A DNA stretch of 64,000 nt from Brumimicrobium glaciale. Lineage in GTDB: Bacteria; Bacteroidota; Bacteroidia; Flavobacteriales_D; Crocinitomicaceae. The translations under genes and the position numbers were made by a program. Under the pieces are notes generated by a model. It was not told where the DNA came from and did no database searches. It was given only the letters and a program-made list of their open reading frames with translations. The stretch covers positions 124,001 through 188,000 of the forward strand of contig NZ_SETE01000006.1 of assembly GCF_004152935.1 (NCBI RefSeq). Reading direction: 5' to 3'. Shown piece after piece: positions 25,892 through 47,414 of the stretch (the first letter of the stretch is position 1; each line of letters opens with the position of its first letter).

Positions 25892-28800
25892 ATGAATCCA
25901 AGCTCAAAAATAATAATACTGCTTTTATTGCTTTTAATGGTGTCAATTGTACCATTAAGAAGTCAAACTTCTAATTTAAGATGGAAAACAATAACACCCG
26001 AAAATGACACTTTAATTATTGACAGTTTAACCATTTATCAAAATAGTTTTAAGGTTTTTTGTGGTGATTCATTACTCGATAAATCTGCTTATTATTTTGA
26101 TGGAAATAGCAGAAAGTTCCTTTCTAAAACTACTTGCTTAGATACACTTCAACTAAGGTACCGAGTTTTTTCTATTGATTTTCAAAAACCTTATCAGACA
26201 ATTGATACTTCTATGATTTATCAAAATGTTGGAAAAATAGATGATTTCTTCTTTAGAAGTGAAGATAAACCGTTGAACTTTTTCTCTGATGAAGGAATTA
26301 AAAAATCGGGAAGTATTTCAAGGGGAATTAGCTTCGGAAATTCACAAGACCTTTCTGTAAATTCGACATTGAACCTACAGCTTTCGGGTGAGATTTCTAA
26401 TAATATGAACATCCTGGCTACTGTAACAGATGACAATTTGCCTATTCAACCGGATGGAAATACCAATCAAATACAAGAGTTTGATCAAGTTTTTATTCAA
26501 CTGTACGGAAAGGAGTATAAAATAATTGCAGGAGATTTTTGGTTGAAAAAACCAACTGGTTATTTTACAAATTACAATAAAAGAGCCCAAGGTTTATATG
26601 GACAATATTCTTGGGGTGAAGAAAAAGCAAAATGGACAATTCAAGGCGCAGGTGCGCTTTCAAAAGGGAAATTCTCTAGAAATGAAATTCAAGGAATGGA
26701 AGGAAGTCAAGGACCTTACCGATTAAAAGGAAATGAAAATGAGCCATTTATAATGGTCTTATCCGGAACAGAAAAGGTTTATTTGGATGGTAGGTTGCTT
26801 GAACGTGGTCAAGAATACGATTATGTGATTAATTACAATAGCTCAGAATTAGTTTTTACCCCAAGAAATCAAATAACTAAAGACACTCGAATTGTGGTAG
26901 AATTTCAATATACAGATCAAAATTATGCACGTTCATTATTTCAAGCAAGTGCAACTTACGAAAGTGAAAAATTTGATTTCTGGCTTAATATGTTCAGTGA
27001 ACAAGATGCTAAGAATCAATCCTTACAACAAAAACTCAGTAATAAGGATAAATTGCTCTTGAGTAAAATTGGGGATAGCTTAGATTTAGCAAGAACACAA
27101 TCCATTGATAGTGTTGGTTTTTTAGACAACCAAGTGACTTATAAATTAATGGATTCATTGGGAATTGATTCTGTTCTGGTTTATTCTGTGAGTCCAGATT
27201 CTGCATTTTATAGGGCAACTTTCACTAACGTAGGCATAGGAAATGGGAACTATATCTTTGATCGATTTACTGCCGTTGGAAGAGTTTATAAATGGGTAGC
27301 TCCAATTGGAGGAGTTCCACAAGGGGATTTTGAACCAACAAGACTCATCGTTACTCCAAAGAAAAATGCCATGATTTCTGCTGGAATAAACTACCGTTTC
27401 AATAAGAAATGGAAAATAATGACGGAAATGAGTACCACCAACAACGATAAAAATACATTTTCTAGGGTCAATAATGAGGACAATAGAGCTTTTGCCAATA
27501 AAACTACAATTGATGGTTTGTTTAATCTAAGGAATGATTCCACTTCAATGTGGGAATTGTCTACAGGATTGGACTTTGAATACAGAACACAATATTTTAA
27601 AGAAATTGAAAGGTACCGAGGAGTAGAGTTTGATCGTGATTGGAATGTAAGGAATAGAAAATATGAAGGACAAGAAGTGTTGGCTCATATTTCAGGAGGA
27701 ATTAAACACAAGAAATTTGGAGGAGTAGAACTAAAAGCTCAAAACTTCACATTGGGAGAAGAATATCAAGGAAATAGAGGTCAGCTATTGGGAGATTGGA
27801 AAAAAAATGGTTTTGAAGCTTCTCTAGATGGAAGTTATTTAAGAGCAAATGCTGACGGTAAAAACACCTATTTAAGGCATAAATCTAAACTAAGTCAAGA
27901 ATTCGGTAAGATTAAAATTGGTTTTGAAGATGATCATGAACTCAATCAATTTGAATTAGGAGATACTTTATTGAGAACAAATTCTTATCAATGGTATGAT
28001 TGGAAAGTTTACTTGGCCAATGCGGATACTTTACAGAATAAATTTACCGTTTTCTATCGAGAAAGATACGATTGGAAAAGTGATTCTTCACGATTAGTAA
28101 ATGCTGCGAAAGGAAGAAGTGTTGGAGCTGATTATAATTGGGTAACCAATAAAACTTCATCTTTAACTACTTTGATGAGTTATAGAATGTTGGAAATTAA
28201 AGATGAAAAATTAATTGATCAACAACCAGAGAATACTTTCTTGGGTCGAATAGATTACAGATTAAATCTTTGGAAAAATGCATTAACGGCAAGTACCTTT
28301 TATGAAGTTGGATCAGGATTAGAATTGAAAAAAGAATTTCTTTATATTGAAGTGAATGCAGGTCAAGGAGTATATACTTGGATAGATTATAACGGTGATG
28401 GAGTAAAAGATTTAAACGAATTTGAAATTGCACAATATTCAGACCAAGCAAAATACATTCGTGTTTTTACACCCAGTGATGAATATGTGAGAACTTATTC
28501 AAATGAATTTAATCAAACTTTATTTTGGAGACCAGAACGCATTTGGAAAAGTAAAGGGAAAGTCTTAAAACTTTTATCAAGATTCTCGAATCAAGCAAGA
28601 TTTAGGGTGAATCGAAAAATGTCAAATCAATCTACTAGAACCTATAATCCATTTGATAGAAAAATTGCAGATACTAATTTAATAAGCTTTAATTCTACCA
28701 TTCGAAATACCGTATTTTTCAATAGAACAAATCCAGTTTTCGCAGCCGATTATACTTACTCGGAAACTGGTTCTAAAACATTGTTAGCAAGTGGTTTCGA

Positions 28801-29335
28801 TGCCAGAGATGTTCGTTTTAATGCTTTGAATTTCCGATGGAACTTGTGGCGTAAATTCACCATAAACTTAGGAACTGAAGAGGGTTTAAAATCTTCTTCG
28901 GCAGATTATACATCAGGTAGAGATTTCTCAATTCAATATCACAACATCCAACCAGAGCTTATTTTTCAACCCAGTACAACTTTCCGACTTTCTTTAAAAG
29001 GAAGATATGAAGAGAAAAGCAATGGTCCTGAATTTGGAGGTGAAAAAGCATTTATAGGAGATTTAGGATTGGGTTTAAAATGGAATCAGGTTGAAAAAGG
29101 AAGCTTAAATGCAGAAGTAAAAATCGTATCAATAAATTATTCTGGCAACCAAAATAGCGCTTTGTCCTATGAAATGCTAGAATCGTTAAAACCAGGACGA
29201 AATTATACTTGGAATGTAAATTATCAACGAAACATTTCTAAAAACCTACAAATCAGTCTACAGTACAATGGTCGTCGCTCCGAAGACAGTAAGACAATTC
29301 ATTCTGGTGGAGTCGAAGTTCGAGCGTTTTTCTGA
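25892..29335 (+). CDS. Large outer-membrane beta-barrel protein (candidate)
   Basis: 1147 aa, not recognised by name. Residues 1-24 are a signal peptide. From about 150 the sequence is alternating aromatic/polar strands (SGSISRGISFGNSQDLSVNS, YFTNYNKRAQGLYGQYSWG), and it ends GGVEVRAFF with the terminal Phe typical of barrels. An EF-hand-like calcium loop, DYNGDGVKDLNEFE, lies near residue 835. No plug or TonB box is evident, and there is no T9SS sorting domain. It may be a surface channel or assembly protein. The last ~80 codons are duplicated at 33954-34205 with a 102-bp identical core. Confidence 0.7.
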   Translation: MNPSSKIIILLLLLLMVSIVPLRSQTSNLRWKTITPENDTLIIDSLTIYQNSFKVFCGDSLLDKSAYYFDGNSRKFLSKTTCLDTLQLRYRVFSIDFQKPYQTIDTSMIYQNVGKIDDFFFRSEDKPLNFFSDEGIKKSGSISRGISFGNSQDLSVNSTLNLQLSGEISNNMNILATVTDDNLPIQPDGNTNQIQEFDQVFIQLYGKEYKIIAGDFWLKKPTGYFTNYNKRAQGLYGQYSWGEEKAKWTIQGAGALSKGKFSRNEIQGMEGSQGPYRLKGNENEPFIMVLSGTEKVYLDGRLLERGQEYDYVINYNSSELVFTPRNQITKDTRIVVEFQYTDQNYARSLFQASATYESEKFDFWLNMFSEQDAKNQSLQQKLSNKDKLLLSKIGDSLDLARTQSIDSVGFLDNQVTYKLMDSLGIDSVLVYSVSPDSAFYRATFTNVGIGNGNYIFDRFTAVGRVYKWVAPIGGVPQGDFEPTRLIVTPKKNAMISAGINYRFNKKWKIMTEMSTTNNDKNTFSRVNNEDNRAFANKTTIDGLFNLRNDSTSMWELSTGLDFEYRTQYFKEIERYRGVEFDRDWNVRNRKYEGQEVLAHISGGIKHKKFGGVELKAQNFTLGEEYQGNRGQLLGDWKKNGFEASLDGSYLRANADGKNTYLRHKSKLSQEFGKIKIGFEDDHELNQFELGDTLLRTNSYQWYDWKVYLANADTLQNKFTVFYRERYDWKSDSSRLVNAAKGRSVGADYNWVTNKTSSLTTLMSYRMLEIKDEKLIDQQPENTFLGRIDYRLNLWKNALTASTFYEVGSGLELKKEFLYIEVNAGQGVYTWIDYNGDGVKDLNEFEIAQYSDQAKYIRVFTPSDEYVRTYSNEFNQTLFWRPERIWKSKGKVLKLLSRFSNQARFRVNRKMSNQSTRTYNPFDRKIADTNLISFNSTIRNTVFFNRTNPVFAADYTYSETGSKTLLASGFDARDVRFNALNFRWNLWRKFTINLGTEEGLKSSSADYTSGRDFSIQYHNIQPELIFQPSTTFRLSLKGRYEEKSNGPEFGGEKAFIGDLGLGLKWNQVEKGSLNAEVKIVSINYSGNQNSALSYEMLESLKPGRNYTWNVNYQRNISKNLQISLQYNGRRSEDSKTIHSGGVEVRAFF

Positions 29336-29393
29336 GGTAATGCCAATTGATAATTAATAGCCTATGGCTAACGGATTGATAATTAAATAGTGT

Positions 29394-29401
29394 TATATTT
29401 G
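29394..29401 (+). promoter_or_regulatory. -7 element before the 281-aa cargo gene
   Basis: TATATTTG fits TAnnTTTG, 24 bp before the ATG. The nearest TTG is only 15 bp upstream instead of 19, so the promoter is partial. Confidence 0.4.
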
Positions 29402-29424
29402 AATGTGTATTCAAATTAAACACC

Positions 29425-30270
29425 ATGAAAAATTCACTTTTTTTATTATTCTCACTGACCATTGGAGGGCTTTTCGGACAGCAAACTCCCGAATTTTCAT
29501 TCGAACTGTATTTTGAAGATGCTATAGGGAATAAGGATACAATTACTTTAGGGTATGATGAATTAGCGACAAATGGAATCGACGCTCCTTTCGGAGAGGT
29601 CGACAAACTTAATGATGCATGGAATACTACTTTGGAAGCAAGGGTTGGTGATAAAACATATTCAGGTTTAAATACATCCTCAGTTTGGATCAATTCAAAC
29701 TCATATTTGTCAAAAAAACAAATTTTGAATTCTTACTGTCAGGATATTGATTACCCTGAAAGAATTTCTATTCAATTTACCACGGACAATTATCCAATAA
29801 AAATAAAATGGGATAAAAAAATCTTCGATGAAGATTGCCAAAAATATTCCTTTCTATTTGGACAAGATGATCACTATCATTTTGATGCTACTGGATTCTT
29901 AATGTTAAGAAGTGCTGATAGTTTAGTTATAGATTCGTCTTTTGTCTTTCTTGGCCGAGAATTGGCGAGTTATGAAACGAATGGAAATATTATAGGTGTT
30001 CTTCAATTTGTGTTTCATCGATATTATAATTTGAATATTGAAGTGAATCAAATAGATCTTCCAAATGTATTCCCTAACCCAATAAATGGTGATTATATTA
30101 AAGTAATGTTTGAAGGGCAATATGAAATAAAAGATATGACAGGAAAAATTATACAAAAAGGTATAATTGAAAATGACAGGATTCTCTTTCACAACCACCA
30201 AAATGGTATTTTCAACTTGTTACTATTTAACAAGAGTAAATCTTACAACCTAAAAATTATTAAATTATGA
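29425..30270 (+). CDS. Secreted protein with T9SS type A sorting domain
   Basis: 281 aa. Signal peptide residues 1-18 (GGLFGQ), a middle region of about 180 residues I do not recognise, with two cysteines near 96 and 130, and a C-terminal sorting domain starting VFPNPINGDYIKV (about residue 213), ending LKIIKL. By family it is exported by Sec, crosses the outer membrane by T9SS, and the C-terminal domain is removed. Its stop overlaps the ATG at 30267 (ATGA), coupling it to the metalloprotease frame. Both lie in the stretch bracketed by the duplicated barrel 3' end. Confidence 0.75.
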   Translation: MKNSLFLLFSLTIGGLFGQQTPEFSFELYFEDAIGNKDTITLGYDELATNGIDAPFGEVDKLNDAWNTTLEARVGDKTYSGLNTSSVWINSNSYLSKKQILNSYCQDIDYPERISIQFTTDNYPIKIKWDKKIFDEDCQKYSFLFGQDDHYHFDATGFLMLRSADSLVIDSSFVFLGRELASYETNGNIIGVLQFVFHRYYNLNIEVNQIDLPNVFPNPINGDYIKVMFEGQYEIKDMTGKIIQKGIIENDRILFHNHQNGIFNLLLFNKSKSYNLKIIKL

Positions 30271-30332
30271 AAGCAATAAACTTTATTTTTAGATTAATAT
30301 GTTTAGCTTCAGTTAATTTGCTTTATGGGTAA
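30267..30332 (+). pseudogene. Severed signal peptide of the metalloprotease
   Basis: ATG at 30267 reads MKAINFIFRLICLASVNLLYG and then TAA (30330-30332). The following codons in the same frame (TNLFCPTVFPENESSS...) run without another stop into the metalloprotease. Signal peptides here end in YGQ or FGQ, so the expected codon at the stop is CAA; a single C-to-T change gives TAA. Either a recent nonsense mutation or a sequencing error. Confidence 0.75.
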
Positions 30333-30404
30333 ACCAACTTATTTTGCCCTACTGTTTTTCCTGAAAACGAGTCAAGTTCAACGCGCTCTGCAACATGTGA
30401 TGAC

Positions 30405-33400
30405 TTGTCTGGAATGTATAACAATTATTATGGGAGGTACCAATTTTCTGAAGATATTTATGATATTAGAAATATAATAGAAATTCCAATTGATGTTCAT
30501 ATTTGGCAGAAGGATAATTCTACAGGTAACTATATTGATAACGTTTTCAATAGAACAGTAATTGAGGATGCAATGGTTAAAATTAATGAAATATTTACAG
30601 ATATAACTACTCCATCTGATGTAATTCCAGGAGTGGTGAACTATGAAAGTTCGAAAATTATAATCACTCTAGGTAATATTTTTTTTAATCAAAACACTTC
30701 TTGTTGGAGTGCAGGCGATATTGCTGGACCTTCAACAGGTGAATATTTGAATTCAGAAGCTAATATCTTACATCCTGGATCAAGCAAAAATTTCAAAATT
30801 CATTTTACTGGAGCTTCTCCAGCATGGTCGGGTTTTGGACGGTTCCCTTCATTTACCCAAGATCATGAGCATTATGTCGTAACTTATAACTCTCTCCCGA
30901 TGTTTGGTAATGATGTAAATGTGCCTAATGCCTTAGCAGTACATCTAGCCCATGAACTTGGTCATAACTTAGATTTGTATCACACTTATCAAACATCTTT
31001 TGACGCTTGTAATGAAAATAATCCAGATTATTTAGATGATGTTTTTGGATCTGGAATTAATAAAGTATGTCCTCATGACGCTGGTTGGGAATGTATTACA
31101 ACATCACCTCTCAATTCATGTACCAATAATATTATGGGTGGGTCAAGCGGCGCAAAATATATTTCACCGAATCAAGTCCATAGAATGCACAGAGCTCTTT
31201 CCATGGGTTCTATTAGGAATTATGCAAAGGTTCATAGTTTTGATGAAAATTTGATATTAGAAGTAAATCAAGATGAAACATGGGATTTTAGTGTTAAACT
31301 CTTTAATAGTTTAAGAATTAAATCAGGTAATACTTTGATTATTAGGTGTGAAATTCAATTTGTTCCCGAGGCGAAACTTATAATTGAACAAGGTGCAAAA
31401 GTTATTTTGGACGGTGGAACATTGACAAATGAAAAGTTCCAAAGTCAATACTGGCAAGGAATCCAAGTTTACGGAACATCAAACCAACACCAATATCCAG
31501 TCAATAACCCTACCCATCAAGGAATGTTAGAAATTAAAAACGGCGGAACTATAGAAAATGCTCATAAAGCAGTTACCAATTGGAAAGAAGGTTCTTGGAA
31601 TGAAATTGGTGGTGTGATTAAGTCAACTGACGGATTTTTTAGAAATAATAGAAGAGGGGTTGAGTTTATGGTGTATCAAAATTTCCACCCATCTAACTCA
31701 AGCATAAAGAGAGACAACACTTCTAGTTTTACAGACACAGACTTTTTGACAGATGATGATTTTATTGAAGGACATCCTCAGCAACCACATGTTTCTATGT
31801 GGAAAGTCCAAGGTATAAACTTTACAAATTGTCATTTTGCAAATAATGTTACCTCAAGTAAATCATTGAGCAGCTCTCCAAATGAAGGTATTACTGCGCT
31901 TGACGCTAGTTTTAGAGTTCTTCCAAGGTGTGATTCTCCTCCGTTACCAGTAGGTCAATCGTGTCCATCAGGTTCATTGTTAAGGTCAAGTTTTAGTGGT
32001 CTTGAGTTTGCAGTTCAAATTGCAGGAGCGGGTATTACAGATGCAGTAACCGTAACACAGGCAGATTTTACTAATAATAATATGGGAATTTATGTTGATG
32101 AATTTGACAATATCAATCTTAACAGAAATGACTTTATCATCGGCAATAGTGGTTATTTAAATAGTGTGTATCCAGGAAATGGAATTACGCTTGATAACTC
32201 GACAGGTTTTATAGTTGAAGAAAACTCAGTGTTAAGTAATATGAATGGAGGTAAAACATCTGGAATAGTGGTGATAAATAGTGGTTCAGCTAATAATCAA
32301 GTGTATAAAAACAGCCTAAACAATCTTTATTTGGGTACGCAAGCCAGTAAAATTAATCGAAAATTAGATTTGCATTTAAATACGGGTCTTCAATTTTTAT
32401 GTAATGATTATGTTCAAAATAGAACAGCAATTTCCGTTAGCTATCCATCTCCAGGCAACGGCATTAGATATTATCAAGGAGAGTTTTACCCAAAAACCTC
32501 TGCTGGAAATACATTCCTGCTTAATAATATGGATATAACAAATAATACCAATAGTCATTTTAATTACTATCATTCAGGAGGAAATACGCTACCAAATGTC
32601 GTTACAGGGCCAGTTGATCCTATTCCAAATAGTGCGTTAAATGCTTGTCCAACAAGTTTTACAAGTGGGATCTCTATGTTTAGTCAGCTCGTAACAGAAT
32701 TGTCAGATTATGAAATCGAACTAGCAAATCATAAAACAGCTTACAATATTCTCAATTACAATTATGTCTCTTTAATTGATAATGGAAATACAGAGATATT
32801 TCAAGGACAAATTGAAAACAACTGGTCTAGCGATGCTTGGATTTTGAGAAATGAGTTGATGCAAGAATCTCCTTATTTATCATCCGAAGCCTTATTAACT
32901 GCAGCTGGTGAGAATATTTTACCAAACGCCATGTTGTTAGAAGTGCTTTTAGCTAATCCTGATGCAACAAGAGGTGAGGATTTCATTAATAAATTAAATG
33001 AAGTTACAGGTAATGCCTTGCCAGAATACATGCTTAACTATGTCAGAAATAACTGGGATACTGAAACAGTGAGAACTACTTTGGAAGGTGAGATGATGTC
33101 TTATCAGGCTAAAATTGCATCAGCAAATAGTTTTATCAAGTATTTAGAGAAATCTAAAGAGGAACATACTTATGCAGAAAGACACAACACTGTTTTAATG
33201 GGAGAAGGAGTTTCTAATAAAATAGGATTAATGGACTTCTTTATTGAGAACAGTGAGTGGTCTAGAGCAGATTCTGTATTGCAAGCACTTAATAGCGACG
33301 AAAGTTTAGAGGGCGACCTAGGTTTGCTTGACGATTTTGATAACTATATCACTTTCAGATCTAGTCTTGGTGAAAGAAGTGTTGCAGAACTTGATTCATC

Positions 33401-33842
33401 AGAAATTAGTTATTTGGAAACTTTAGCTGAGAAAGGTAGTAGAGCATCGGGTTATGCTGAAAATATTTTATGTTTCTTCTATGATATTTGTTACGAGAAG
33501 GAAATACCAGAAGGTGGGTCAATGGCAAAAATGTTAACAATTCCAGCTCCATCAGGTAACGAACCATCTTTAGAAGAGATAATGTACAACATCACAGTTT
33601 ATCCAAACCCAGCAAGTGATTTCACAAGCATCAAATGGGAAGTTTATGATGAACTGAATAATGCCCACTACAAAATCTTCGATTTGAATGGTCGCGAAAT
33701 GGGGTCAGGAGCAATTGAGAAAAATGAAGGTGAAAAAGTTGTTGACACAAGAAGTCTTACCAACGGAGTTTATATTATCAATATCTACAACGACGGAATT
33801 ATGAAAATGAATTCTAAGTTGATTGTGAGTAAAGAGAAGTAA
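30405..33842 (+). CDS. M43-like metalloprotease with beta-helix and T9SS domain, 5' end broken
   Basis: The open part is 1145 aa; restoring the stop at 30330 would give 1191 aa from 30267 (numbering used here). The zinc site is HELGHNLDLYH (H229, E230, H233, H239) with a Met-turn NNIMGG (M290), a metzincin arrangement close to M43 pappalysin-like enzymes, although the usual Gly before the third His is Asp. Residues ~350-790 have right-handed beta-helix character (repeated GNGITLDNSTGFIVEENS-type turns). The C-terminus is a T9SS type A domain (ITVYPNPASDFTSIKWEV). Without its signal peptide it could not be secreted; TTG 30405 or ATG 30414 are only formal starts. Followed by a terminator. Confidence 0.75.
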   Translation: MSGMYNNYYGRYQFSEDIYDIRNIIEIPIDVHIWQKDNSTGNYIDNVFNRTVIEDAMVKINEIFTDITTPSDVIPGVVNYESSKIIITLGNIFFNQNTSCWSAGDIAGPSTGEYLNSEANILHPGSSKNFKIHFTGASPAWSGFGRFPSFTQDHEHYVVTYNSLPMFGNDVNVPNALAVHLAHELGHNLDLYHTYQTSFDACNENNPDYLDDVFGSGINKVCPHDAGWECITTSPLNSCTNNIMGGSSGAKYISPNQVHRMHRALSMGSIRNYAKVHSFDENLILEVNQDETWDFSVKLFNSLRIKSGNTLIIRCEIQFVPEAKLIIEQGAKVILDGGTLTNEKFQSQYWQGIQVYGTSNQHQYPVNNPTHQGMLEIKNGGTIENAHKAVTNWKEGSWNEIGGVIKSTDGFFRNNRRGVEFMVYQNFHPSNSSIKRDNTSSFTDTDFLTDDDFIEGHPQQPHVSMWKVQGINFTNCHFANNVTSSKSLSSSPNEGITALDASFRVLPRCDSPPLPVGQSCPSGSLLRSSFSGLEFAVQIAGAGITDAVTVTQADFTNNNMGIYVDEFDNINLNRNDFIIGNSGYLNSVYPGNGITLDNSTGFIVEENSVLSNMNGGKTSGIVVINSGSANNQVYKNSLNNLYLGTQASKINRKLDLHLNTGLQFLCNDYVQNRTAISVSYPSPGNGIRYYQGEFYPKTSAGNTFLLNNMDITNNTNSHFNYYHSGGNTLPNVVTGPVDPIPNSALNACPTSFTSGISMFSQLVTELSDYEIELANHKTAYNILNYNYVSLIDNGNTEIFQGQIENNWSSDAWILRNELMQESPYLSSEALLTAAGENILPNAMLLEVLLANPDATRGEDFINKLNEVTGNALPEYMLNYVRNNWDTETVRTTLEGEMMSYQAKIASANSFIKYLEKSKEEHTYAERHNTVLMGEGVSNKIGLMDFFIENSEWSRADSVLQALNSDESLEGDLGLLDDFDNYITFRSSLGERSVAELDSSEISYLETLAEKGSRASGYAENILCFFYDICYEKEIPEGGSMAKMLTIPAPSGNEPSLEEIMYNITVYPNPASDFTSIKWEVYDELNNAHYKIFDLNGREMGSGAIEKNEGEKVVDTRSLTNGVYIINIYNDGIMKMNSKLIVSKEK

Positions 33843-33870
33843 ACAATAGCTTTTAGCTTTATGAGAAATG

Positions 33871-33904
33871 CACATTCCTTAATTGGGATGTGCTTTTTGT
33901 TTTA
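33871..33904 (+). terminator. Terminator after the metalloprotease
   Basis: GCACATTCC pairs with GGGATGTGC (one U-G pair) around TTAATT, followed by TTTTTGTTTT. Confidence 0.8.
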
Positions 33905-33953
33905 GGCAAAATTATGAATGCTATATCGGATGTTTTTATCAATTCCAGCTCAA

Positions 33954-34205
33954 AATCAAATCGAAAAAGGAAGTTTAAATGCCGAAGTAAAAATAGTATC
34001 TATAAATTATTCGGGACCTCAAAACAGCGCTTTGTCCTATGAAATGCTAGAATCGTTAAAACCAGGACGAAATTATACTTGGAATGTAAATTATCAACGA
34101 AACATTTCTAAAAACCTACAAATCAGTTTGCAGTATAACGGTAGACAGTCAGAAAACAGCAAAACTATTCATTCTGGTGGGGTAGAAGTAAGAGCATTCT
34201 TTTAA
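33954..34205 (+). pseudogene. Second copy of the barrel protein 3' end
   Basis: From AAT at 33954 the frame reads NQIEKGSLNAEVKIVS and continues to GGVEVRAFF-stop, matching the last ~83 residues of the 1147-aa protein with a handful of changes. Bases 34026-34127 are identical to 29156-29257 (102 bp), while both flanks differ at about one base in five, mostly silently. Upstream there is no barrel sequence or signal peptide, only the metalloprotease terminator, so this is a gene fragment. Confidence 0.85.
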
Positions 34206-34348
34206 ATTCCTTGGATTATTGAAAAAAGTTTTTTAGCTTAGCTTACGACAATTAGAAATAAAGGATTTTCTTTTCGCAAAAATAAATTGCAACCTTATTT
34301 TAATTGTCACGTTAAAAAAGAGACCCTACTCAATTTATTACTACGATT

Positions 34349-37300
34349 ATGAAGAATTCAAGTTTTAACGCTTTGGCATTTATATTATTATTGTTTAGCT
34401 TCTTCTTTTTTACTAAAGAAGTAAAAGCTTCGCACGTTGCAGGGGGATATATTCAAATAGAATGTACTGGTGTGCCAGGAGTTTATAATGTGAGTTTAGT
34501 ACTTTACCGGGATTGTTCAGGTGTTAATTTAGGAAATAACGCAAATATTAACTTTACTAATACTTGCGGTCTGAACAACATCAATGTTAATCTTACTAGA
34601 GTTTCTCAAACGGAAGTTTCTCAGGTTTGTATCCAACAAGCTGGAAATACTACCTGTAATAATGGACCGCTACCGGGTTATGAAGAACATGTTTTTGAAG
34701 GAACCGTTAATCTTGGTGATTGTGATACTTGGACCGCTAATTATAATCTTTGTTGTAGAAATACAGTGATTAATCTTGTAAATGATGATCCTTTTAATGT
34801 TTCAACACAAATAAATACAGCCACAGATAATTGTAATGATACACCAAGTATAACTGCTCAGCCAGAACCTTATGTTTGTATAAATCAGCCTGTTTCTTAC
34901 AACTTAGGAGCCTTTGAACCAAACGGTGATTCAATAGTATATTCTTTAGTTGATGCCGTTCAGGGGATAAATAATCCAGTACCTTATACACCAGGTTATA
35001 CCGGTGCAATTCCAATTACCGGTGCTGCAATAGATCCGGTTTCTGGAACCATTACTTTCACACCTACAATCGTTGGAGCTTTTGTTATCGTTATTCGAAT
35101 GATTGAATACAATTCCAATGGAGATATTGTTACCATTACAGATTATGAATATCAGACTTATGTTGAGAACTGTAACAATCAAACTCCTCAACCTCCTGCT
35201 GCTGGTGTTACTAATGTTACGGGAAGTATTGTTCAAAATGGTCCAAATGATTTAACACTTTGTCAAGGTAATAATGGATGTTTTGATATTATTTTTAATG
35301 ACCCAGATGGAACCAATGCTTTAACGGTTCAATCTAATATAGCGCAAGTACTTCCTGGAGCAACAGTTACGACATCAGGCTCTAATCCTTTAACATTAAC
35401 CATTTGTTGGACACCAACAGTAACCCAAGGAACAGAAACTTTAAACTTTTTAGTTCAAGATGACGCTTGTCCAATTGTGGGTCAGAATAATTATGCTGTT
35501 ACCATTAATGTTGTAGACCCTGGAATAACATCCGTTATTACAACTACAGAATTGTGTTTAGGAACTGATTTAGGAACTGCTACGATTTCCATGACAGGTG
35601 GTAATCCACCATTTGTTTATACTATTTCAGGAACTCAAACAGGAACAAATTCCACAGGTTTATTTGATAATCTACCACCTGGTAACTATAATTATACCGT
35701 AAATTCTGGCGGAGGTTGTGATGTTAATGGAACTTTTGTGATTGATCCTGGAGCTCCTCTTCCAGTCACAACTTCTTCAATTAATTTAACGTGTAATTCT
35801 TCTGGAGATGGATCAGCAACCATTACACCTTCAGGCGGTATTGCTCCTTTTACTTATGATTGGTCTCAAGGTGGAACTCCATTAACACAAAATACGCAAA
35901 CGATTTCAGGTTTAACAGCAGGAACCTATGATGTTACTTTAACAGATAATATTGGGTGTACAACAGATGAGATAATAACAATCACTGAACCAACCGTTTT
36001 AACTGGAACTTTATTGCCAACTCCAGCAAATTGCAATGGAAGTTCGGATGGTGAAATCAATGTAAATACTGTTTCAGGAGGAACTTCTCCTTATGGATTC
36101 AGTTTGAACGGAGGAACTTCTCAATCAGGAACAAGCTTTAATGGTTTAACAGCTGGAAGTTATGAAGTTGAAATTTCTGATGACCATGGTTGTAGTTTAA
36201 CATTAACGAGTGTTGTTACAGAACCAACAGCATTACTTATTAATATTGATATTAGCGAAGATGCAACTTGTGGTGCAAACTCAGGTTCAATCAATCTTTC
36301 TGCAACAGGAGGAATCTCTCCTTATACGTATTCCATCGGTGGAGCAAATCAGTCAACTGGCGTATTTACAAACTTAGCACCAAATACATATACGGTAACA
36401 GTAACTGATGGAAATGGATGTTCAAATTCTACAACAGTAACTATTGCAGATGTTATTGTTCCAACAGCAATTATAGATAATCAAATAAATTTAAGTTGTT
36501 TCGGAGGAAATAATGGGCAAGTAATTATTGGGACAACTAATGCAGTTGCTCCAATTACTTATTCTTTAAATGGTGGAACGCCTCAAGCATCAAATTCATT
36601 TGCTGGTTTAACTGCTGGAACTTATACAGTAGAAATGATTGATGGAAACGGATGTTTTGCAACGACAAATGTTACAATTACTCAGCCAGCTGTTATGAAT
36701 TATACTACAACTCCAACCAACGCGTCTTGTCAAGGCGATTGTAATGGACAAATCGTTGTTGCTGCCTCTGGAGGAACTGCTCCTTATACTTTTTCAAGTA
36801 ATAATGGAGTTTCATTTGGACCCAGTGCAACTTTAAATAATTTATGTGCTGGAAATATTCAAATCGTTGTAAGCGACCTCAATGGTTGTCTTGCTAATTC
36901 AGTAGTGAATATCGCAGAACCAACAGGATTAACCGCAACATTAACAGGAACAGACCCGGATTGTAATTTAGGTACAGATGGTGAAATTCAAGTAGCAGCA
37001 TCGGGAGGAACATCACCGTATTTATATAGTGTAAACAATGGGACACCTCAGTCAAGTAATTTACTTACTGGTTTGAGTGCTGGAGTTTATAGTGTACTTG
37101 TGGAAGATGCAAACGGTTGTCAATACACAATTTCGCAAACGTTGTTTAACCCTCCAGGAATAACTCTTAATCAATTGTCAAATACTTCATCAAATTGTGG
37201 GAATAATGACGGTGAGTTAGAAGTTGGAGCGGTTGGAACAAATGGACCTTTTCAATATTCTATTAATGGTTCGGTAAATCAAGCAAGTGGAATATTTCCA

Positions 37301-40300
37301 AATATTACGGGAGGAAGTTACCAAGTTATAGTGACTAACACAATTGGATGTCAAGATTCATCTTTTTTTGGAATCAATGATATTCAAATGACAGGTACTT
37401 TAGTCAGCACAACAGATATTTCATGTTTCCAAGGTAGCGATGGTGCAGTGGAAGTAATAAATGTTGGTGGTGCATTGCCTATCGTATTCGAATTAGATAA
37501 TAATGGTGCAACACAATCTACAGGAGTTTTCACAGGACTTTCTGCAGGTGGACATATTGCTACAATTGTGGATAACGGACTTTGTGTATTCACTATTCCT
37601 TTTACATTAATTCAGCCTGATAAAATTAATTTTGATGGAACTATTCAGAATGTAGATTGTAATGGAGCATCCACTGGACAAATAGCCTTAATAAATGTAG
37701 TTGGCGGAACAGGACTTTACGAATACAGTATTGATAATGGAAACACCTATCAACCTACAAGTACCTTCACTGGTTTGGCAGCAGGAACTCATACAATTAC
37801 TGTTAGAGATGATGAAGGATGTACGGTTGATAAAGACTTCATAGTTCAAGAATCTTCATTAATAACGTTTACTGAAACGGTATTTGATTTGAATTGTAAT
37901 AATGACAATACGGGTGTTATTCAATTGGCCGCTTCTAATGGTAATCCTGGATATACTTACAGTAACGACAATGGAATTAGCTTCCAAAATTCTTCAAGTT
38001 TCTTAGGGTTGTCAGCAGGTGCTTATACTATGTTTGTGCAAGATAATTTAGGTTGTCAAGTGTCAAGAAGTATCGTCGTGAATGAACCAGCACCAATTAC
38101 TGCAACTTATGCTCTTCAAGATGCAACGTGTTTCGGAGTGTGTGATGGCGAAATTCAAATTACTGCGAACGGCGGAACACCTGGTTATACTTACAGTATT
38201 GACAATGGAATAAACACTACTGTAAATAATACAATTACAGGTATTTGTGCAAGTAGTTTTGATATTATAATTAAAGACGCCAATGGTTGTGTTAATACTA
38301 CTAATCAAGCCATTAATGAACCTTCGCAAGTGGCATTTACAAGTGTTGAAACGCCTTCAACTTGTGAAGATCCAAACGGTGAAATTTCAATAACTGCAAC
38401 AGGTGGAACGCCAGCCTATACTTATAGCATCAACAATGGAGCGTCATTTGTCGCTGGAAATTCTTTTACTGGATTATTAGCTGGAACTTTCAACTTAGTT
38501 GTTGAAGATAATAATGGTTGTCCTGCTACTGGAACGCAAATAGTAACCAATGAAGCGTCACCAACTATTTCAATGGCATTAGGAACTGATCCTTCTTGTA
38601 ATGGAGGAGCAAATGGTCAAGTTATCGTTACAGCAATTGGCGGAACTGGAGGTTTGTTTTATTCAATTAACAGTGGCGCTCCTCAAGCGAGTGCAACTTT
38701 AACTGGATTAACTGCCGGGTCTTATAGTGTAACTGTAGAGGATGCAAATGGTTGTACAGATACAGAAACAGTTGTTTTGGGAGAGCCGACACCATTAACC
38801 TTTACATCAGTTCCAACAACATTGGCATGTTTCCAGAATTCTTCAGGAAGTATAGCTGTTACTGCATCTGGTGGAACTCCAGTTTACCAGTATTCGTTTA
38901 ACGGAGGTTCAACTTTCAATGCTTCATCTTCAAATAACTTTATTGCGGCAGGCACTTACAATATTGTAGTTAAGGATGCTAATAATTGTCAGATTACTGG
39001 AACAGAAACAGTAACAGAGCCAACACAATTGGTGCTAGATAATGCGACAGTTACAGATGCGAATTGTAAAAGTGCTTGTGATGGTGAAATTCAATTGTCA
39101 GTTTCTGGCGGAATGGCTCCTTACACTTATGACTGGTTGCAAGGAGTTGCAGGTGTAAATGATGATTTGGCTACGCAATTGTGTGCTGGAACTTATGACT
39201 TTGTTATTGAAGATGACAACGGATGTCAAGTGATTGACAATGCTTTTGTAGATGAACCAGATTCAGTAATTCTTACAGACATATTTGAGACAAACATTAC
39301 TTGTAATGGGGATTGTGACGGAGAAATTGAAGTAATTTCAGCTACTGCAACAGAATTCTCAATAGATGGAGGTACTACTTTCCAAACTGGAAATGTTTTT
39401 AGTAATATCTGTGCAAATGTTTACAATCTTGTTGCTAAGGATGCAGATGGTTGTTTGGTTGAACGTACAGTAGATATTTGGGAAGCAAATCAAATATCAT
39501 TGGAATTAACAGATGATACTACCGTTTGTAATAACTTTAATTTCAAATTAGTGGGTACAGGATTGGGTGGAATTCAGCCTTACACATATCAGTGGAGTAA
39601 CGGTGGTTCACTTACAGATACTTTAGATATTGTAGCTGCGCAAACAGATTCTTATTCGCTTGCAATATTTGACTTTAATGGGTGTACTGTACCCGCTGAA
39701 AATGTTACAGTGACTGTTATTCCATTGCTTGACATGAATATCGTTACAGATACTACAATTTGTCGAGAAGGAGTTGCTACAATTTCAGCGCAAGGAATTG
39801 ATGGCTTACCAGCTTACGCGTATACTTGGAGCTCTGGTCAAACGACAAGCTCAATTGATGTTACTCCATCAGTCAATACTACTTATACAGCAACAGTTAC
39901 TGATCAATGTGGTGACCAAGTTTCAATGGATGTAATCGTTGAATTATACCCTACACCAAGTGCTAATCTTGTCGCAGATAAGCTGAGTGGTTGTGTACCT
40001 TTAGATGTAAACTTCTTAAATATTACAAACCCAAGTGACGTTGGTTCAAATTGTGTTTGGACAATCAACGAGCAAACATTTAATGGTTGTACAGGTATTA
40101 ATTACACTTTTACGGAGGGCGGTTGTTATGATGTTAACTTACAAATAGAATCACCATTTGGTTGCATGGGCGATACTACTTTCTTCGATTATATTTGTGT
40201 TGATGAATATCCAACAGCAAGTTTTAATTACTCACCAGATGCACCAACGACTATAAATAATATTGTTGACTTTACGAATACATCTGAAGGAGCAACAAAT

Positions 40301-40756
40301 TATGAATGGACTTTCGAGAAAGAAGGTACTTCAAGTTTGATAAGCCCAACAATCACTTTCAGTAATATTGAGATTGGACAAGAAGTTACCGTTTGTTTAA
40401 TTGCGACTTCCAGATTCGGATGTGAAGATGAAGTTTGTGATGACATCTTGTTTAAAGATGAGTTTATAGTTTATGTTCCTAACTCATTTACTCCTGATGG
40501 AGATAAATATAATCCAATGTTTAGCCCAAGATTTCCGCCAGATAGCGACATCATAGAATATCGCATGCAAATCTACAACAGATGGGGCGAAATCATGTTT
40601 GAGTCTTTTGATAGCCAAGTGGGATGGAGAGGAACTTATGGAACTGGTTCATCAAACATTGTAAAGGAAGGAACATATATTTGGAAAATTCAGATTGTTG
40701 AAGGAAGAGATTTAAAACAAAGAGAATTTATTGGTCATGTTACTTTATTGAAGTAA
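34349..40756 (+). CDS. SprB-repeat giant adhesin with type B-like T9SS/gliding C-terminal domain
   Basis: 2135 aa. Signal peptide 1-28, an N-terminal domain starting SHVAGGYIQIECTG common to Bacteroidetes surface proteins (to ~300), then from about residue 390 to 1710 about 17 SprB-type repeats of ~75 residues, each with C-x-G-x-x-x-G-x-I and GGT-x-PY-x-YS-x-N-x-G followed by GL-x-AG-x-Y-x-V-x-V-x-D-x-x-GC. Two Ig-like repeats, two PKD-like domains (~1868-2030) and a C-terminal domain beginning YVPNSFTPDGDKYN (about 2040) follow. SprB of Flavobacterium johnsoniae is the moving gliding adhesin; this is a smaller relative. Cysteines recur in each repeat. It sits upstream of a PorP/SprF gene, its likely export partner. 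Confidence 0.9.
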   Translation: MKNSSFNALAFILLLFSFFFFTKEVKASHVAGGYIQIECTGVPGVYNVSLVLYRDCSGVNLGNNANINFTNTCGLNNINVNLTRVSQTEVSQVCIQQAGNTTCNNGPLPGYEEHVFEGTVNLGDCDTWTANYNLCCRNTVINLVNDDPFNVSTQINTATDNCNDTPSITAQPEPYVCINQPVSYNLGAFEPNGDSIVYSLVDAVQGINNPVPYTPGYTGAIPITGAAIDPVSGTITFTPTIVGAFVIVIRMIEYNSNGDIVTITDYEYQTYVENCNNQTPQPPAAGVTNVTGSIVQNGPNDLTLCQGNNGCFDIIFNDPDGTNALTVQSNIAQVLPGATVTTSGSNPLTLTICWTPTVTQGTETLNFLVQDDACPIVGQNNYAVTINVVDPGITSVITTTELCLGTDLGTATISMTGGNPPFVYTISGTQTGTNSTGLFDNLPPGNYNYTVNSGGGCDVNGTFVIDPGAPLPVTTSSINLTCNSSGDGSATITPSGGIAPFTYDWSQGGTPLTQNTQTISGLTAGTYDVTLTDNIGCTTDEIITITEPTVLTGTLLPTPANCNGSSDGEINVNTVSGGTSPYGFSLNGGTSQSGTSFNGLTAGSYEVEISDDHGCSLTLTSVVTEPTALLINIDISEDATCGANSGSINLSATGGISPYTYSIGGANQSTGVFTNLAPNTYTVTVTDGNGCSNSTTVTIADVIVPTAIIDNQINLSCFGGNNGQVIIGTTNAVAPITYSLNGGTPQASNSFAGLTAGTYTVEMIDGNGCFATTNVTITQPAVMNYTTTPTNASCQGDCNGQIVVAASGGTAPYTFSSNNGVSFGPSATLNNLCAGNIQIVVSDLNGCLANSVVNIAEPTGLTATLTGTDPDCNLGTDGEIQVAASGGTSPYLYSVNNGTPQSSNLLTGLSAGVYSVLVEDANGCQYTISQTLFNPPGITLNQLSNTSSNCGNNDGELEVGAVGTNGPFQYSINGSVNQASGIFPNITGGSYQVIVTNTIGCQDSSFFGINDIQMTGTLVSTTDISCFQGSDGAVEVINVGGALPIVFELDNNGATQSTGVFTGLSAGGHIATIVDNGLCVFTIPFTLIQPDKINFDGTIQNVDCNGASTGQIALINVVGGTGLYEYSIDNGNTYQPTSTFTGLAAGTHTITVRDDEGCTVDKDFIVQESSLITFTETVFDLNCNNDNTGVIQLAASNGNPGYTYSNDNGISFQNSSSFLGLSAGAYTMFVQDNLGCQVSRSIVVNEPAPITATYALQDATCFGVCDGEIQITANGGTPGYTYSIDNGINTTVNNTITGICASSFDIIIKDANGCVNTTNQAINEPSQVAFTSVETPSTCEDPNGEISITATGGTPAYTYSINNGASFVAGNSFTGLLAGTFNLVVEDNNGCPATGTQIVTNEASPTISMALGTDPSCNGGANGQVIVTAIGGTGGLFYSINSGAPQASATLTGLTAGSYSVTVEDANGCTDTETVVLGEPTPLTFTSVPTTLACFQNSSGSIAVTASGGTPVYQYSFNGGSTFNASSSNNFIAAGTYNIVVKDANNCQITGTETVTEPTQLVLDNATVTDANCKSACDGEIQLSVSGGMAPYTYDWLQGVAGVNDDLATQLCAGTYDFVIEDDNGCQVIDNAFVDEPDSVILTDIFETNITCNGDCDGEIEVISATATEFSIDGGTTFQTGNVFSNICANVYNLVAKDADGCLVERTVDIWEANQISLELTDDTTVCNNFNFKLVGTGLGGIQPYTYQWSNGGSLTDTLDIVAAQTDSYSLAIFDFNGCTVPAENVTVTVIPLLDMNIVTDTTICREGVATISAQGIDGLPAYAYTWSSGQTTSSIDVTPSVNTTYTATVTDQCGDQVSMDVIVELYPTPSANLVADKLSGCVPLDVNFLNITNPSDVGSNCVWTINEQTFNGCTGINYTFTEGGCYDVNLQIESPFGCMGDTTFFDYICVDEYPTASFNYSPDAPTTINNIVDFTNTSEGATNYEWTFEKEGTSSLISPTITFSNIEIGQEVTVCLIATSRFGCEDEVCDDILFKDEFIVYVPNSFTPDGDKYNPMFSPRFPPDSDIIEYRMQIYNRWGEIMFESFDSQVGWRGTYGTGSSNIVKEGTYIWKIQIVEGRDLKQREFIGHVTLLK

Positions 40757-40861: not shown

Positions 40862-40882
40862 TAGGATTTATTGATAGAATTT

Positions 40883-43090
40883 ATGATGCAAAAATGCTAC
40901 TATATAATACTCTTTGCGCTTCTCTTATTTCAGAGTGGTTTTGCACAAGATGCCGCTATAACGACTGGAACTAGTCCTTTAAATGGCTGTAATCTTACCG
41001 CTACGGAAGATGTTAAACTCATCATTCTGAATAATTCGTCACTTGTAATTCCTTCAGGAAGTATTACAGTTAAATATACGGTAAATGGAAGTATTCCAAT
41101 TGCTGAGGTTTTAACAACAAATTTATCTGGAGGAGCAACTTGGAATTTTACATTCAATGCAAAAGCAAATTTATCTAATTGTGGTGCATATACCTTGAAG
41201 ACTTGGATAGAATATGCTGCAGATATTAATCTTATTAACGATACATTGGTTTGGTCAGTTCAAAATGATTGTACTGTTGTTCCTGGCCAAGTAGTGAATG
41301 ACGAATTAGTTTGCCATGGAAATAATTCGAATACGCTCAACTTTATTAATTCACAAAATGGAAGTATTAGCAATTGGGTGTTCTCTGAAAACAATGGAGC
41401 TTCATGGAATCAAATTACGAATTCAACTTCAAATCACACATTTAATAATTTAATAACTGATACAAAATTCGCTGTCGCAATAGATGGTGGATTTTGTCCA
41501 AATGATACATCAAGCGCAGCAACAATTACGGTTCAACCCTTGCCGTTTTTAGGAACATTGTACGGTCAAGATTCACTTTGTGCGAGTAATCCAACTGGTG
41601 TTGTAGCACTTTCTGGAGCTTCGGGATCGATATTGGATTGGGAAAACAGTACCGATAACGGTAATACTTGGACGACAAGTGGAAATAATTCTACCCTTGA
41701 AAGCTTTTCAAATTTAAGCGGAACAACTTGGTTTCGAGCAATTATTGAGGATGGAATTTGTCCAAATGTTTACTCCGATACTTTTGTAGTACACATCGTT
41801 GAAGAAACGAATGCGGGTATTCTGGAAACAGACACTTTGATTTGTCAAGATGAGGTGGTAGATTTAACTTTAGGAACTTCGATTGGTGATGTAAGTCAAT
41901 GGGAGAAGTCTGCTGATGGAATAACATGGACGACTATTTTACAAAGTAATCCAGTTTTTTCATACAACACAGGTGTTTTAACTAACCCAACTCATTATAG
42001 AGTATCGGTGAAAAACGGTATTTGTCCAGCCGAACTCTCCAATAGTATAATTGTTGATGTGCAAGACAATCCGTTTGGTGGCTCAGTTGCTGGCACAGAT
42101 TCAGTTTGTGCTTCAGCAGCGAATGGAGTAATCGCATTAAATGGTAATTCAGGTGGAGTTATAGAATGGAGTTCATCAATCGATCAAGGACAAAACTGGA
42201 TAATATTTCCATCAACGAACACCGTTTTGAATTATACGAATTTATCACAATCAATTTTATATAGGGCCTTAATAAATGGTGGAGCTTGTCCAAATATTTA
42301 TTCTGACACAGCAGAAATAACCGTAATTGATGTTTCAAATGCTGGAAGTTTATTTGCGGATACTTCCATTTGTGAAGGAGAAGAATTAACACTATCTCAA
42401 ATCAATATAAACGGTGCAATTGTTTCTTGGCAAAGTTCTCCAGACTTTACGAACTGGTCAAACATTAACAATACGGATAGCACTTATTTTATTAACTCAT
42501 TAAGTGCATCTGGTCATTACCGTGTGATAGTTAAAAATGATATTTGTCCCAGTGATACTTCTAATTCCATTTTTGTAGAACTATTGTCTCTTCCGATAGC
42601 AGATGCAGGAATTGATGTTGAAATTACTTCGGGAGAATCTGCACAATTAAATGGAAGTGGCGGTCAATTTGGAATTTGGGAACCCGGTACAACTTTGAAT
42701 GATTCAATAATTTATGACCCACTAGCAAATCCATTGAAAACAACAGAGTATTCTTTATTTGTGATTGGTAATAACGGATGTTTTGCTGCTGATCAAATGA
42801 GTGTTATCGTAAATGATCCAATTCCAGCTATTGAAATAACTAATCTTTTGACACCAAATAATGATGGGTTTAATGATTTTTGGTTTATTAAAGGGATTTC
42901 TTTTTATACAAATACAGAAGTTGAAGTTTACAATCTTTATGGTCAACAAGTTTATGTCAATAAGGATTATAAAAACAATTGGAATGGTGAATATAAAGGA
43001 AAGAGATTACCAGATGGAACTTACTTTTACTTTGTGAAGATAAAAGATGAGGTGATTAAAGGAGACTTAACAATTTTAGGAAATGACTAA
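40883..43090 (+). CDS. Secreted Ig-like repeat protein with gliding/T9SS type B-like C-terminal domain
   Basis: 735 aa from the ATG at 40883 (a TTG at 40871 is also in frame but would put charged residues before the signal peptide). Signal peptide ends FAQD (about residue 23). Residues 130-560 hold five Ig-like repeats of about 85 residues, each with a Cys-containing start (DSLCAS, DTLICQ, DSVCAS, DTSICE) and a W...S.DNG..W core. The C-terminal domain begins ITNLLTPNNDGFNDFW (about 650) and ends KGDLTILGND. The stop overlaps the PorP/SprF start by 8 bases, so cargo and presumed partner are translationally coupled. Confidence 0.85.
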   Translation: MMQKCYYIILFALLLFQSGFAQDAAITTGTSPLNGCNLTATEDVKLIILNNSSLVIPSGSITVKYTVNGSIPIAEVLTTNLSGGATWNFTFNAKANLSNCGAYTLKTWIEYAADINLINDTLVWSVQNDCTVVPGQVVNDELVCHGNNSNTLNFINSQNGSISNWVFSENNGASWNQITNSTSNHTFNNLITDTKFAVAIDGGFCPNDTSSAATITVQPLPFLGTLYGQDSLCASNPTGVVALSGASGSILDWENSTDNGNTWTTSGNNSTLESFSNLSGTTWFRAIIEDGICPNVYSDTFVVHIVEETNAGILETDTLICQDEVVDLTLGTSIGDVSQWEKSADGITWTTILQSNPVFSYNTGVLTNPTHYRVSVKNGICPAELSNSIIVDVQDNPFGGSVAGTDSVCASAANGVIALNGNSGGVIEWSSSIDQGQNWIIFPSTNTVLNYTNLSQSILYRALINGGACPNIYSDTAEITVIDVSNAGSLFADTSICEGEELTLSQININGAIVSWQSSPDFTNWSNINNTDSTYFINSLSASGHYRVIVKNDICPSDTSNSIFVELLSLPIADAGIDVEITSGESAQLNGSGGQFGIWEPGTTLNDSIIYDPLANPLKTTEYSLFVIGNNGCFAADQMSVIVNDPIPAIEITNLLTPNNDGFNDFWFIKGISFYTNTEVEVYNLYGQQVYVNKDYKNNWNGEYKGKRLPDGTYFYFVKIKDEVIKGDLTILGND

Positions 43091-44492: not shown

Positions 44493-44496
44493 AATA

Positions 44497-46755: not shown

Positions 46756-46770
46756 ATGTGGCTTCATTTT

Positions 46771-46912
46771 AATTGTCATTTCGCTATGTAAGGGAGGTCA
46801 ATCCCTTTTTACTGGTTTAAAAGCGACCTCGTTTTCTCAGAGTCAACATCTACAATAAGGAGTAGTGAAAAAGGAGATTCTCAGTCGTTTTACTCCATCC
46901 GGAATGACAATG
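46771..46912. repeat. MITE-like repeat, copy 1
   Basis: Imperfect 12-bp terminal inverted repeats (ATTGTCATTTCG and CGGAATGACAAT) enclose about 140 bp. The inner 100 bp (from AATCCCTTTTTACTGG) recurs at 47018-47117 with about one difference in eight bases. No coding frame. Confidence 0.65.
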
Positions 46913-46927
46913 TAGGTTTGTTGGGGT

Positions 46928-46968
46928 GGTAGAAAGATGCAAAAGCGAAGCTTTTGCATCTTTCTACC
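46928..46968. repeat. Perfect 19-bp hairpin between the two repeat copies
   Basis: GGTAGAAAGATGCAAAAGC (46928-46946), loop GAA, then its exact complement (46950-46968). It sits between copy 1 and copy 2 of the repeat. No T-run follows on the + strand (an A-run follows), but the - strand reads a T-run before the stem; either way it is a stable structure. Confidence 0.8.
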
Positions 46969-46984
46969 AAAAAACGACTCAACT

Positions 46985-47117
46985 AATTGTCATTCCGACA
47001 ATGCACAGCATTGAGGAATCCCTTTTTACTGGTTTAAAAAGTGACTTCGTTTCCTTAGAGTCAACATCTACAATAAGGAGTAATCAAAAAAATAGATTCT
47101 CAATCGTTTCACTCCAA
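46985..47117. repeat. MITE-like repeat, copy 2, truncated
   Basis: Starts with AATTGTCATTCCGAC, has the CAATG/CATTG mini-hairpin and GAGGAATCCC, then the shared inner part, but the right end (CACTCCAACTGCC) lacks the CGGAATGACAAT terminus. The 240 bp to the next gene hold nothing coding. Confidence 0.6.
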
Positions 47118-47260
47118 CTGCCTTCCTAGACACCGCGACGTGGAATCTGTTTTGAAGCCTTTTTTCATAGATATTTATATTTTGTTGAATTTTAAACCCT
47201 GGCTAAGAATTACGACTTAGCTTAATAAAACAATCTTTTTGCCCCTGACCAAATTAATCA

Positions 47261-47318
47261 TTGTCATCCTGAAGCGAAAACATAAAAAATTATTTTTGTG
47301 TTTTGCGAAGGATCTCTT
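47261..47318. repeat. Short interspersed repeat of the GTCATCCTGAAGCGAA type
   Basis: TTGTCATCCTGAAGCGAAAA and TTTTGCGAAGGATCTC flank an A/T hairpin (GCGAAAACATAAAAA with its near complement). The same opening and closing words recur widely between genes in Bacteroidetes; here it lies between converging genes. Confidence 0.5.
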
Positions 47319-47357
47319 TATTTGATGAATTAGAGTTAAACTCAAAATATCAATCAT

Positions 47358-47390: not shown

Positions 47391-47414
47391 TCATTCTTAA
47401 TACAACTTATTCTT

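Follow-up and report, generated by a model that had tools for sequence, protein, structure and literature searches.

The stretch of DNA analysed here, 64,000 nucleotides of contig NZ_SETE01000006.1 (positions 124,001 to 188,000, forward strand; below, the window), comes from Brumimicrobium glaciale (assembly GCF_004152935.1; genus Brumimicrobium, Crocinitomicaceae). It contains a conserved gene, called here the barrel gene, whose 3′ end occurs a second time beyond two inserted genes. The locus is real and derived, and it is best read as a product of homologous recombination between species that rebuilt the end of a conserved gene, a known type of 3′-end displacement in a new form. Judging from sequence comparison, we hold it moderately likely that such an exchange, free of any integrase, gave the barrel gene its present 3′ end, stranded the native tail downstream and left this insertion scar. 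"Barrel" is the word of a first-pass annotation of this DNA; structure prediction of the barrel protein from seven sequences (mean predicted local distance difference test score 35.7) was too poor to test for a barrel fold and was not used. The features on which the argument turns are the following.

25892 to 29335, forward strand: barrel gene, from its open reading frame (ORF) and translation; 1147 amino acids, ending GGVEVRAFF-stop; no match in Pfam or NCBIfam.
29084 to 29335, forward strand: barrel tail, gene copy; 83 codons and a TGA stop; right flank probably imported.
29156 to 29257, forward strand: 102-bp identical core, gene copy; putative conversion or crossover tract.
29425 to 30270, forward strand: "partner", a secreted-type protein of 281 amino acids; weak type IX secretion system (T9SS) type A sorting tail; homologue of 61% identity in B. 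oceani contig G002:C35.
30267 to 33842, forward strand: M43-type metalloprotease with a T9SS sorting domain (PF05572, PF18962); in-frame TAA at 30330-30332, open from a TTG at 30405.
33954 to 34205, forward strand: displaced barrel tail (the fragment); frame intact, TAA stop; in the native place before the SprB-repeat gene.
34026 to 34127, forward strand: 102-bp identical core, fragment copy.
34206 to 34348, forward strand: spacer from barrel tail to SprB-repeat gene, as in empty sites.
34349 to 40756, forward strand: SprB-repeat gene; 2135 amino acids, CHU_C T9SS tail (PF13573, PF13585).

As the first-pass annotation had stated, the last ~80 codons of the barrel gene recur at 33954-34205, and ORF positions place the protease and its partner between the two tails, together with two antisense frames. 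The repeat (29084-29331 against 33954-34201) is 248 nucleotides long, with 87% identity and a spacing of 4870, and a search of the genome itself returned exactly two tail copies. The 102 bp of 29156-29257 and 34026-34127, annotated as identical, proved to be so, without a single difference. The flanks had been said to differ at roughly 20% of positions, mainly silently. The changes are indeed mostly silent, and the figure becomes 18% on the left (13 differences in 72 nucleotides, two amino acid changes) and 27% on the right (21 in 78, stop codon counted, two amino acid changes). Over 83 codons the two tails thus differ by four amino acids, and the coding sequence of the fragment is 95% identical in amino acids to the barrel C-terminus.

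The identity of the core is not due to chance, because a 102-nucleotide identical run has a probability of about 5e-12 at the flank identity of 114/147, and the longest identical run over the whole barrel gene is 32 nucleotides in 28 pairwise comparisons of eight genes. These genes represent eight of the ten genomes of the genus, with G005 and G009 left out. The genomes are labelled G000 (the window's own), G001 (uncultured Brumimicrobium), G002 (B. oceani C305), G003 (B. aurantiacum), G004 (B. mesophilum), G005 (B. salinarum) and G006 to G009 (further genus genomes). A slowly evolving core was ruled out as the cause of the identity: 11 of the 102 positions differ from the G002 gene, and 25 each from the genes of G004 and G003. 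The two figures for chance and for the longest run elsewhere support the earlier proposal that the core is a crossover or conversion tract, and probably a recent one.

The barrel gene itself is widely conserved. It is present in 57 of 59 relatives, and its tail was matched in 186 of 200 family genomes, including 144 of the 146 with at least 90% completeness and at most 5% contamination. Related genomes had been suggested as the place to look for an uninterrupted arrangement, and it was found in four of the nine other genus genomes (G001, G003, G005 and G007), where nothing but a spacer of 146-242 bp separates the barrel gene from the SprB-repeat gene. Therefore, the insert is derived. No SprB match was seen beyond the barrel gene in G004, G006 and G008 within the ~15 kb read; the stretch of G009 reaches 2 kb past the barrel gene, and a reverse gene there weakly matches the end of the SprB gene. 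As to which tail occupies the native place, positions 34101-34732 (fragment end, spacer and SprB start) form one gapped alignment with the barrel-SprB junction of G003 (66.8%), and 34107-34762 a single gapped alignment with that of G001 (66.9%). At the G005 and G007 junctions the coding parts alone align and the spacer itself does not. The fragment, directly before SprB, is therefore the tail in its native place, and the insert came between the body of the barrel gene and that tail.

A search with the tail for other insertions revealed one more. Among the 186 family genomes with a tail match, a second tail is present only in the window's genome and in B. oceani, so relatives do not all carry both tails; the same two stand alone among the window's genome and 59 relatives, in which other multiple matches are pieces of one gene. 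A full second barrel gene, decayed in place of the fragment, is likewise not present. In B. oceani (locus L033) the order is barrel gene, a reverse gene termed B, a protease remnant of 44 codons, a frameshifted tail that also contains a stop, and SprB; gene B here has a CHU_C (T9SS type B) tail and is split over several frames. The B. oceani fragment starts no more than 6 bp from that of the window (blastn, window-equivalent 29078 versus 29084), a coincidence of breakpoints that by a crude estimate would arise by chance in 0.4-1.3% of cases. A shared junction is the likely cause of the matching starts. Since B. oceani bears the same scar in decayed form and around different cargo, the original insertion probably predates the split of G000 and G002, or has moved between species.

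The second scar also bears on two other explanations. One is that two insertions occurred independently at a hot spot, the barrel 3′ end being a preferred docking site. The cargo does differ (partner and protease against a reverse CHU_C gene and a protease remnant), and the tree places the B. oceani fragment beside the gene of the same genome, but the breakpoint is the same within 6 bp, protease 3′ sequence lies to its left in both genomes, and the other 184 family genomes that match the tail showed no second copy of it; we regard this explanation as quite improbable. The other is an assembly artefact, with the core a collapsed repeat or the fragment a mis-join. A 102-bp repeat is able to confuse short-read assemblers, and the evidence comes from the assembly alone. 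However, flanks differing by 18-27% would be kept apart in assembly, the fragment stands before SprB just as the tail does in other genomes, and B. oceani has the same order, so that an artefact is the least credible of the explanations considered.

The substitutions in the two tails point to a history in working genes. Between gene and fragment the flanks carry 27 silent and 6 non-silent changes: silent sites have diverged to the level of species with few non-silent changes, and both tails therefore evolved under constraint on the protein. This makes it probable that, as the first-pass annotation had it, one copy came from a diverged, selected homologue. When bases private to one sequence were counted over the flanks of seven tails, the window fragment had 7 silent and 1 non-silent changes (P 6e-4 under neutral change), and the gene tail of the window 5 and 3. 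Moreover, where the gene departs from the residues usual in the genus the fragment has them (Q, P and the TAA stop). The window fragment is thus cleaner than neutral change allows. The corresponding silent-to-non-silent counts in other intact genes are 6:0 (G002), 5:2 (G004), 3:3 (G003), 9:5 (G001) and, in the distant G005, 4:11, and the B. oceani fragment has 3:11 (Fisher test against 7:1, P 0.006). Decay of the latter is indicated by its frameshift and stop rather than by this ratio.

Selection on the fragment as a small gene in its own right (an ORF of 95 amino acids at 33918-34205, intact and with an ATG) would also account for divergence that is almost wholly silent, as in its private changes of 7:1. 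We consider this very improbable, since the B. oceani counterpart is frameshifted with a stop, no second tail was found in the eight other genus genomes, and the ORF, which has no signal peptide by eye, carries just the end of the barrel protein.

The relationships of the tails suggest which of them is foreign. In a maximum-likelihood tree of the flanks the fragment groups with G002 (ultrafast bootstrap, UFBoot, 80) and the gene tail falls outside; over the rest of the barrel gene G000 groups with G002 (UFBoot 98). Quartet sites were counted as those joining G000 to G002, to G004 or to G003, against a gene-wide background of 113:67:67. The right flank of the gene tail gives 1:5:0, five of six sites joining G004 (P 0.007 against that background), and is nearest B. 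mesophilum (G004) at 66/75. The core gives 9:0:2, with nine of eleven sites joining G002 (P 0.017), and is native-like. It is likely, on a weak phylogeny, that the right flank of the gene tail was imported and that core and fragment are native, and the flank phylogeny, drawn from 147 nucleotides, favours a native fragment and an imported gene tail without rejecting the alternatives. The left 72 bp of the gene tail could be either native or imported, and no change point at which donor sequence would start is visible within the barrel gene.

We suggest the following course of events. Donor DNA from a related Brumimicrobium species, in which a barrel 3′ end was joined to the cassette of partner, protease and terminator, would have recombined with the resident barrel gene within its last ~80 codons. 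This could have happened by one crossover of a circularised piece, giving barrel gene, cassette, tail and SprB, or by two crossovers of linear DNA from a donor in which the scar was present beforehand, giving the same product; the latter route would explain the junction held in common with B. oceani. The barrel gene would gain the donor 3′ end with the cassette next to it, and the resident tail would be stranded before SprB. The barrel protein would stay whole because the donor tail came from a working barrel gene. The 102-bp core would then be the conversion tract of the exchange, with resident sequence copied into both tails. The homologous arm is the barrel tail, and the right junction (33904-33953) has no recognised source. 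Between the tails no integrase was found (partner and protease were searched against Pfam, NCBIfam and PHROGs, the antisense ORFs and the fragment against PHROGs), nor any phage-type match (two genes, two antisense ORFs and the fragment against PHROGs).

Several observations weigh against this account. The scar is also present in B. oceani, where the fragment and the gene of that genome group together (UFBoot 88); a further, separate event such as homogenisation has to be assumed for this. No genome that combines a barrel tail with an intact cassette, as expected of a donor, was found. For the fragment the quartet sites favour no placement clearly (flanks 5:4:1; left 1:1:0, right 4:3:1), and the same is true of the left flank of the gene tail (2:0:2). 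Silent sites among these species are near saturation, and the flanks offer merely 147 nucleotides. An approximately unbiased (AU) test does not reject a gene tail placed with G002 (P 0.195), with the fragment (0.186) or with G004 (0.31), nor any of five placements at 5% (lowest P 0.052). At 75.5%, the gene tail ranks among the lowest 10% of windows for identity to G002, and its right flank among the top 6% for the match to G004; neither is exceptional. The private-change ratio is a blunt measure, because intact genes span 6:0 to 4:11, and 3:11 alone is not proof of decay. The first-pass annotation had proposed that the pair entered by recombination that rebuilt the barrel 3′ end. Of this the derived insert and the displaced tail in the native place stand, and the occurrence of the cassette elsewhere without a barrel tail, as well as the B. 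oceani scar, set limits to it.

A possible, if doubtful, alternative is that the insertion and the doubling of the tail took place a single time, before the window's species and B. oceani separated, for instance through template switching inside one genome. In the window's lineage, allelic exchange with a relative that lacks the insert would later have renewed the fragment, or repeated internal conversion would have homogenised both tails; no tail would have come with the cassette. Both genomes have protease 3′ sequence, a barrel tail starting at most 6 bp from the same codon, and SprB; chance coincidence of the breakpoint is low on the crude estimate above; the B. oceani fragment is nearest its own gene; and the 102-bp tract shows that conversion occurs. 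However, conversion within the genome cannot by itself preserve the protein and at the same time let silent sites drift as far apart as between species (27 silent and 6 non-silent changes), and renewal from outside already requires recombination between species at the same place.

The remaining features of the insert are these.

29336 to 29393, forward strand: spacer from the barrel stop to the start of cassette-wide similarity; blastn similarity to G002:C35 begins at 29394.
33870 to 33898, forward strand: intrinsic terminator ending the cassette; fold of 33860-33905, conserved in five other copies (alignment).
33904 to 33953, forward strand: 50-bp junction segment of unrecognised origin; matches in ten genus genomes short and weak.

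The protease has a Pfam PF05572 (M43-type) domain and, at its C-terminus, PF18962 (Por_Secre_tail, E 2e-11); the partner matches TIGR04183 at E 0.0027, under the family cut-off. The protease of the first-pass annotation is present as an M43-type ORF, and its open frame of 1145 codons (30405-33842) lacks the natural start, from which it is separated by a TAA. The frame from the ATG at 30267 encodes a segment that by eye resembles a signal peptide and then meets the TAA at 30330-30332, so that an N-terminal signal peptide, also by eye, is not in frame with the rest of the protein. Because the TAA directly follows the signal-peptide-like start, export has probably been lost, and the protein as it stands presumably cannot be exported. 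The homologue in G002:C35 has 1194 amino acids and an intact start. The terminator hairpin (33870-33893) has a folding energy of -16.4 kcal/mol (z -4.3). No informative match to a known element was found for the spacer 29336-29393, and the junction segment 33904-33953 gave merely short, weak matches in the ten genus genomes (E 0.002 or worse). Behind the barrel stop, 42 A+T-rich bp (29344-29385) have matches of 83-88% at G000:C2:792715 and G000:C6:2789.

The cassette (29394-33903) has a full copy in G002:C35 (L099) at 72.8%, with the partner homologue upstream of the protease, between genes taken by eye for metF and ribE. The gap at this site, where ribE converges with the gene following metF (both names assigned by eye), holds variable cargo. 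In the seven genus genomes looked at, the gap is empty in three (G000:C1, L132; G001:C10, L134; G005:C4, L136), holds one other secreted-type protein in G003:C21 (L133), four genes including partner and protease in G002:C35, and a reverse B gene with the last codons of the protease and its terminator in G004:C9 (L103); ribE of G007 has different neighbours within the stretch read. Protease tail-plus-terminator remnants also occur at G000:C8 (L102) and G004:C56 (L104), each adjoining a B gene or its end. Overall, an orphan protease sorting domain stands beside a reverse CHU_C gene or its end at four loci (G000:C8, G004:C9, G004:C56 and the G002 barrel locus), three of which keep the terminator, so that this composite is a recurrent one. 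With copies and remnants of the cassette at several loci, T9SS-type secreted cargo therefore moves among a few sites in the genus.

A mobile unit that always carries the barrel tail was ruled out, as no tail was found beyond the two barrel loci in G000, G002, G004 and G007, the genomes that hold the other copies and remnants. Direct gene-end repeats flanking the cassettes were absent at L099, L101, L102, L104 and L105; L103 and L106 do contain direct repeats, but at a distance from the cassette. At G002:C30 (positions 20000-41000; L100 and L137) the genes in sequence are a partner homologue, a B gene in reverse orientation and a protease of nearly full length. A second copy of the gene B 3′ end (residues 561-657 of 666) lies on the same strand beyond the partner homologue (~230 nucleotides, 74%), and this outer copy has no gene body. 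Read in the direction of B, this is a possible second case of gene, insert and stranded gene end; as B is multi-copy here, the outer end might alternatively be what is left of another B gene. A small protein resembling, by eye, an XRE-type regulator follows B at this locus.

A bolder reading, which we think unlikely, is that the barrel 3′ end is an integrase-free docking site whose tail copies act like attachment ends. RecA-driven exchange in the 102-bp core would excise the cassette as a circle with a barrel tail, which would reinsert at the barrel gene in a different cell or species, the barrel protein staying intact throughout. Cargo would be swapped between the ends (partner and protease here, a reverse CHU_C gene and a protease remnant in B. 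oceani), and the same trick may serve other genes, as the orphan CHU_C 3′ end in B. oceani could suggest.

Beyond SprB, positions 40871-52871 of the window, which reach to mraZ (identified by eye), hold more T9SS-type genes (a CHU_C protein, PorP/SprF and an FG-GAP protein) as well as two reverse proteins of 771 and 969 amino acids that look alike on reading. In B. mesophilum the distance from barrel gene to mraZ is ~0.7 kb. We found no literature linking Brumimicrobium to type IX secretion.

If recombination between species did rebuild the barrel 3′ end, the locus would be a case in the Bacteroidota of cargo gained beside a conserved gene, with ordinary homologous recombination rebuilding the end of that gene and the cargo bringing no recombinase. 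It would leave a signature that can be read and searched for: a restored gene, a conversion tract and a displaced native tail. It would also belong to a wider pattern in Brumimicrobium, in which cassettes of T9SS-type secreted proteins come and go at several fixed chromosomal sites, leaving protease tail-plus-terminator remnants.

The arrangement may be compared with four known systems. Genomic islands in tRNA and tmRNA genes (Islander) lie between a restored target gene and a displaced fragment at the far end (PMC4383910), and the same two elements bound the insert of the window, again with the fragment at the far end. Unlike those islands, the insert here sits at a protein gene, with a repeat of 248 bp containing a 102-bp identical core, and no integrase or other mobility gene was found on it. 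The comparison with integration at tRNA genes made by the first-pass annotation is therefore limited to anatomy, the target being neither tRNA nor tmRNA. In E. coli, linear DNA can circularise and integrate by RecA-dependent single crossing-over (PMC3240628), and the product would likewise be target gene, insert and repeated target end; that work concerned plasmids in E. coli, whereas the event proposed here is read from sequence.

Together with the tRNA-gene islands, the closest parallels are systems in which 3′ ends are displaced, and here too an orphan 3′ end lies downstream of the putatively imported module. Orphan 3′-end modules of contact-dependent growth inhibition (CDI) and Rhs loci remain homologous to the gene upstream and have the potential to recombine with that gene (PMC4927057). 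The displaced fragment of the window retains such homology, but there is no toxin/immunity pair here and the displaced tail carries no separate cargo. Nor does the swapped end bring a new effector domain with an immunity gene, the tails being nearly the same (four amino acid differences in 83 codons). In effector displacement of the Vibrio type VI secretion system (T6SS), homology-facilitated illegitimate recombination pushes the older 3′ end downstream (PMC5361080), and the module of the window is similarly anchored by homology on one side with the older 3′ end displaced downstream. There, the effector itself is swapped and immunity genes accumulate (PMC5361080); here, by contrast, the anchored gene is a nearly unchanged neighbour, and the cargo consists of T9SS-type secreted proteins.

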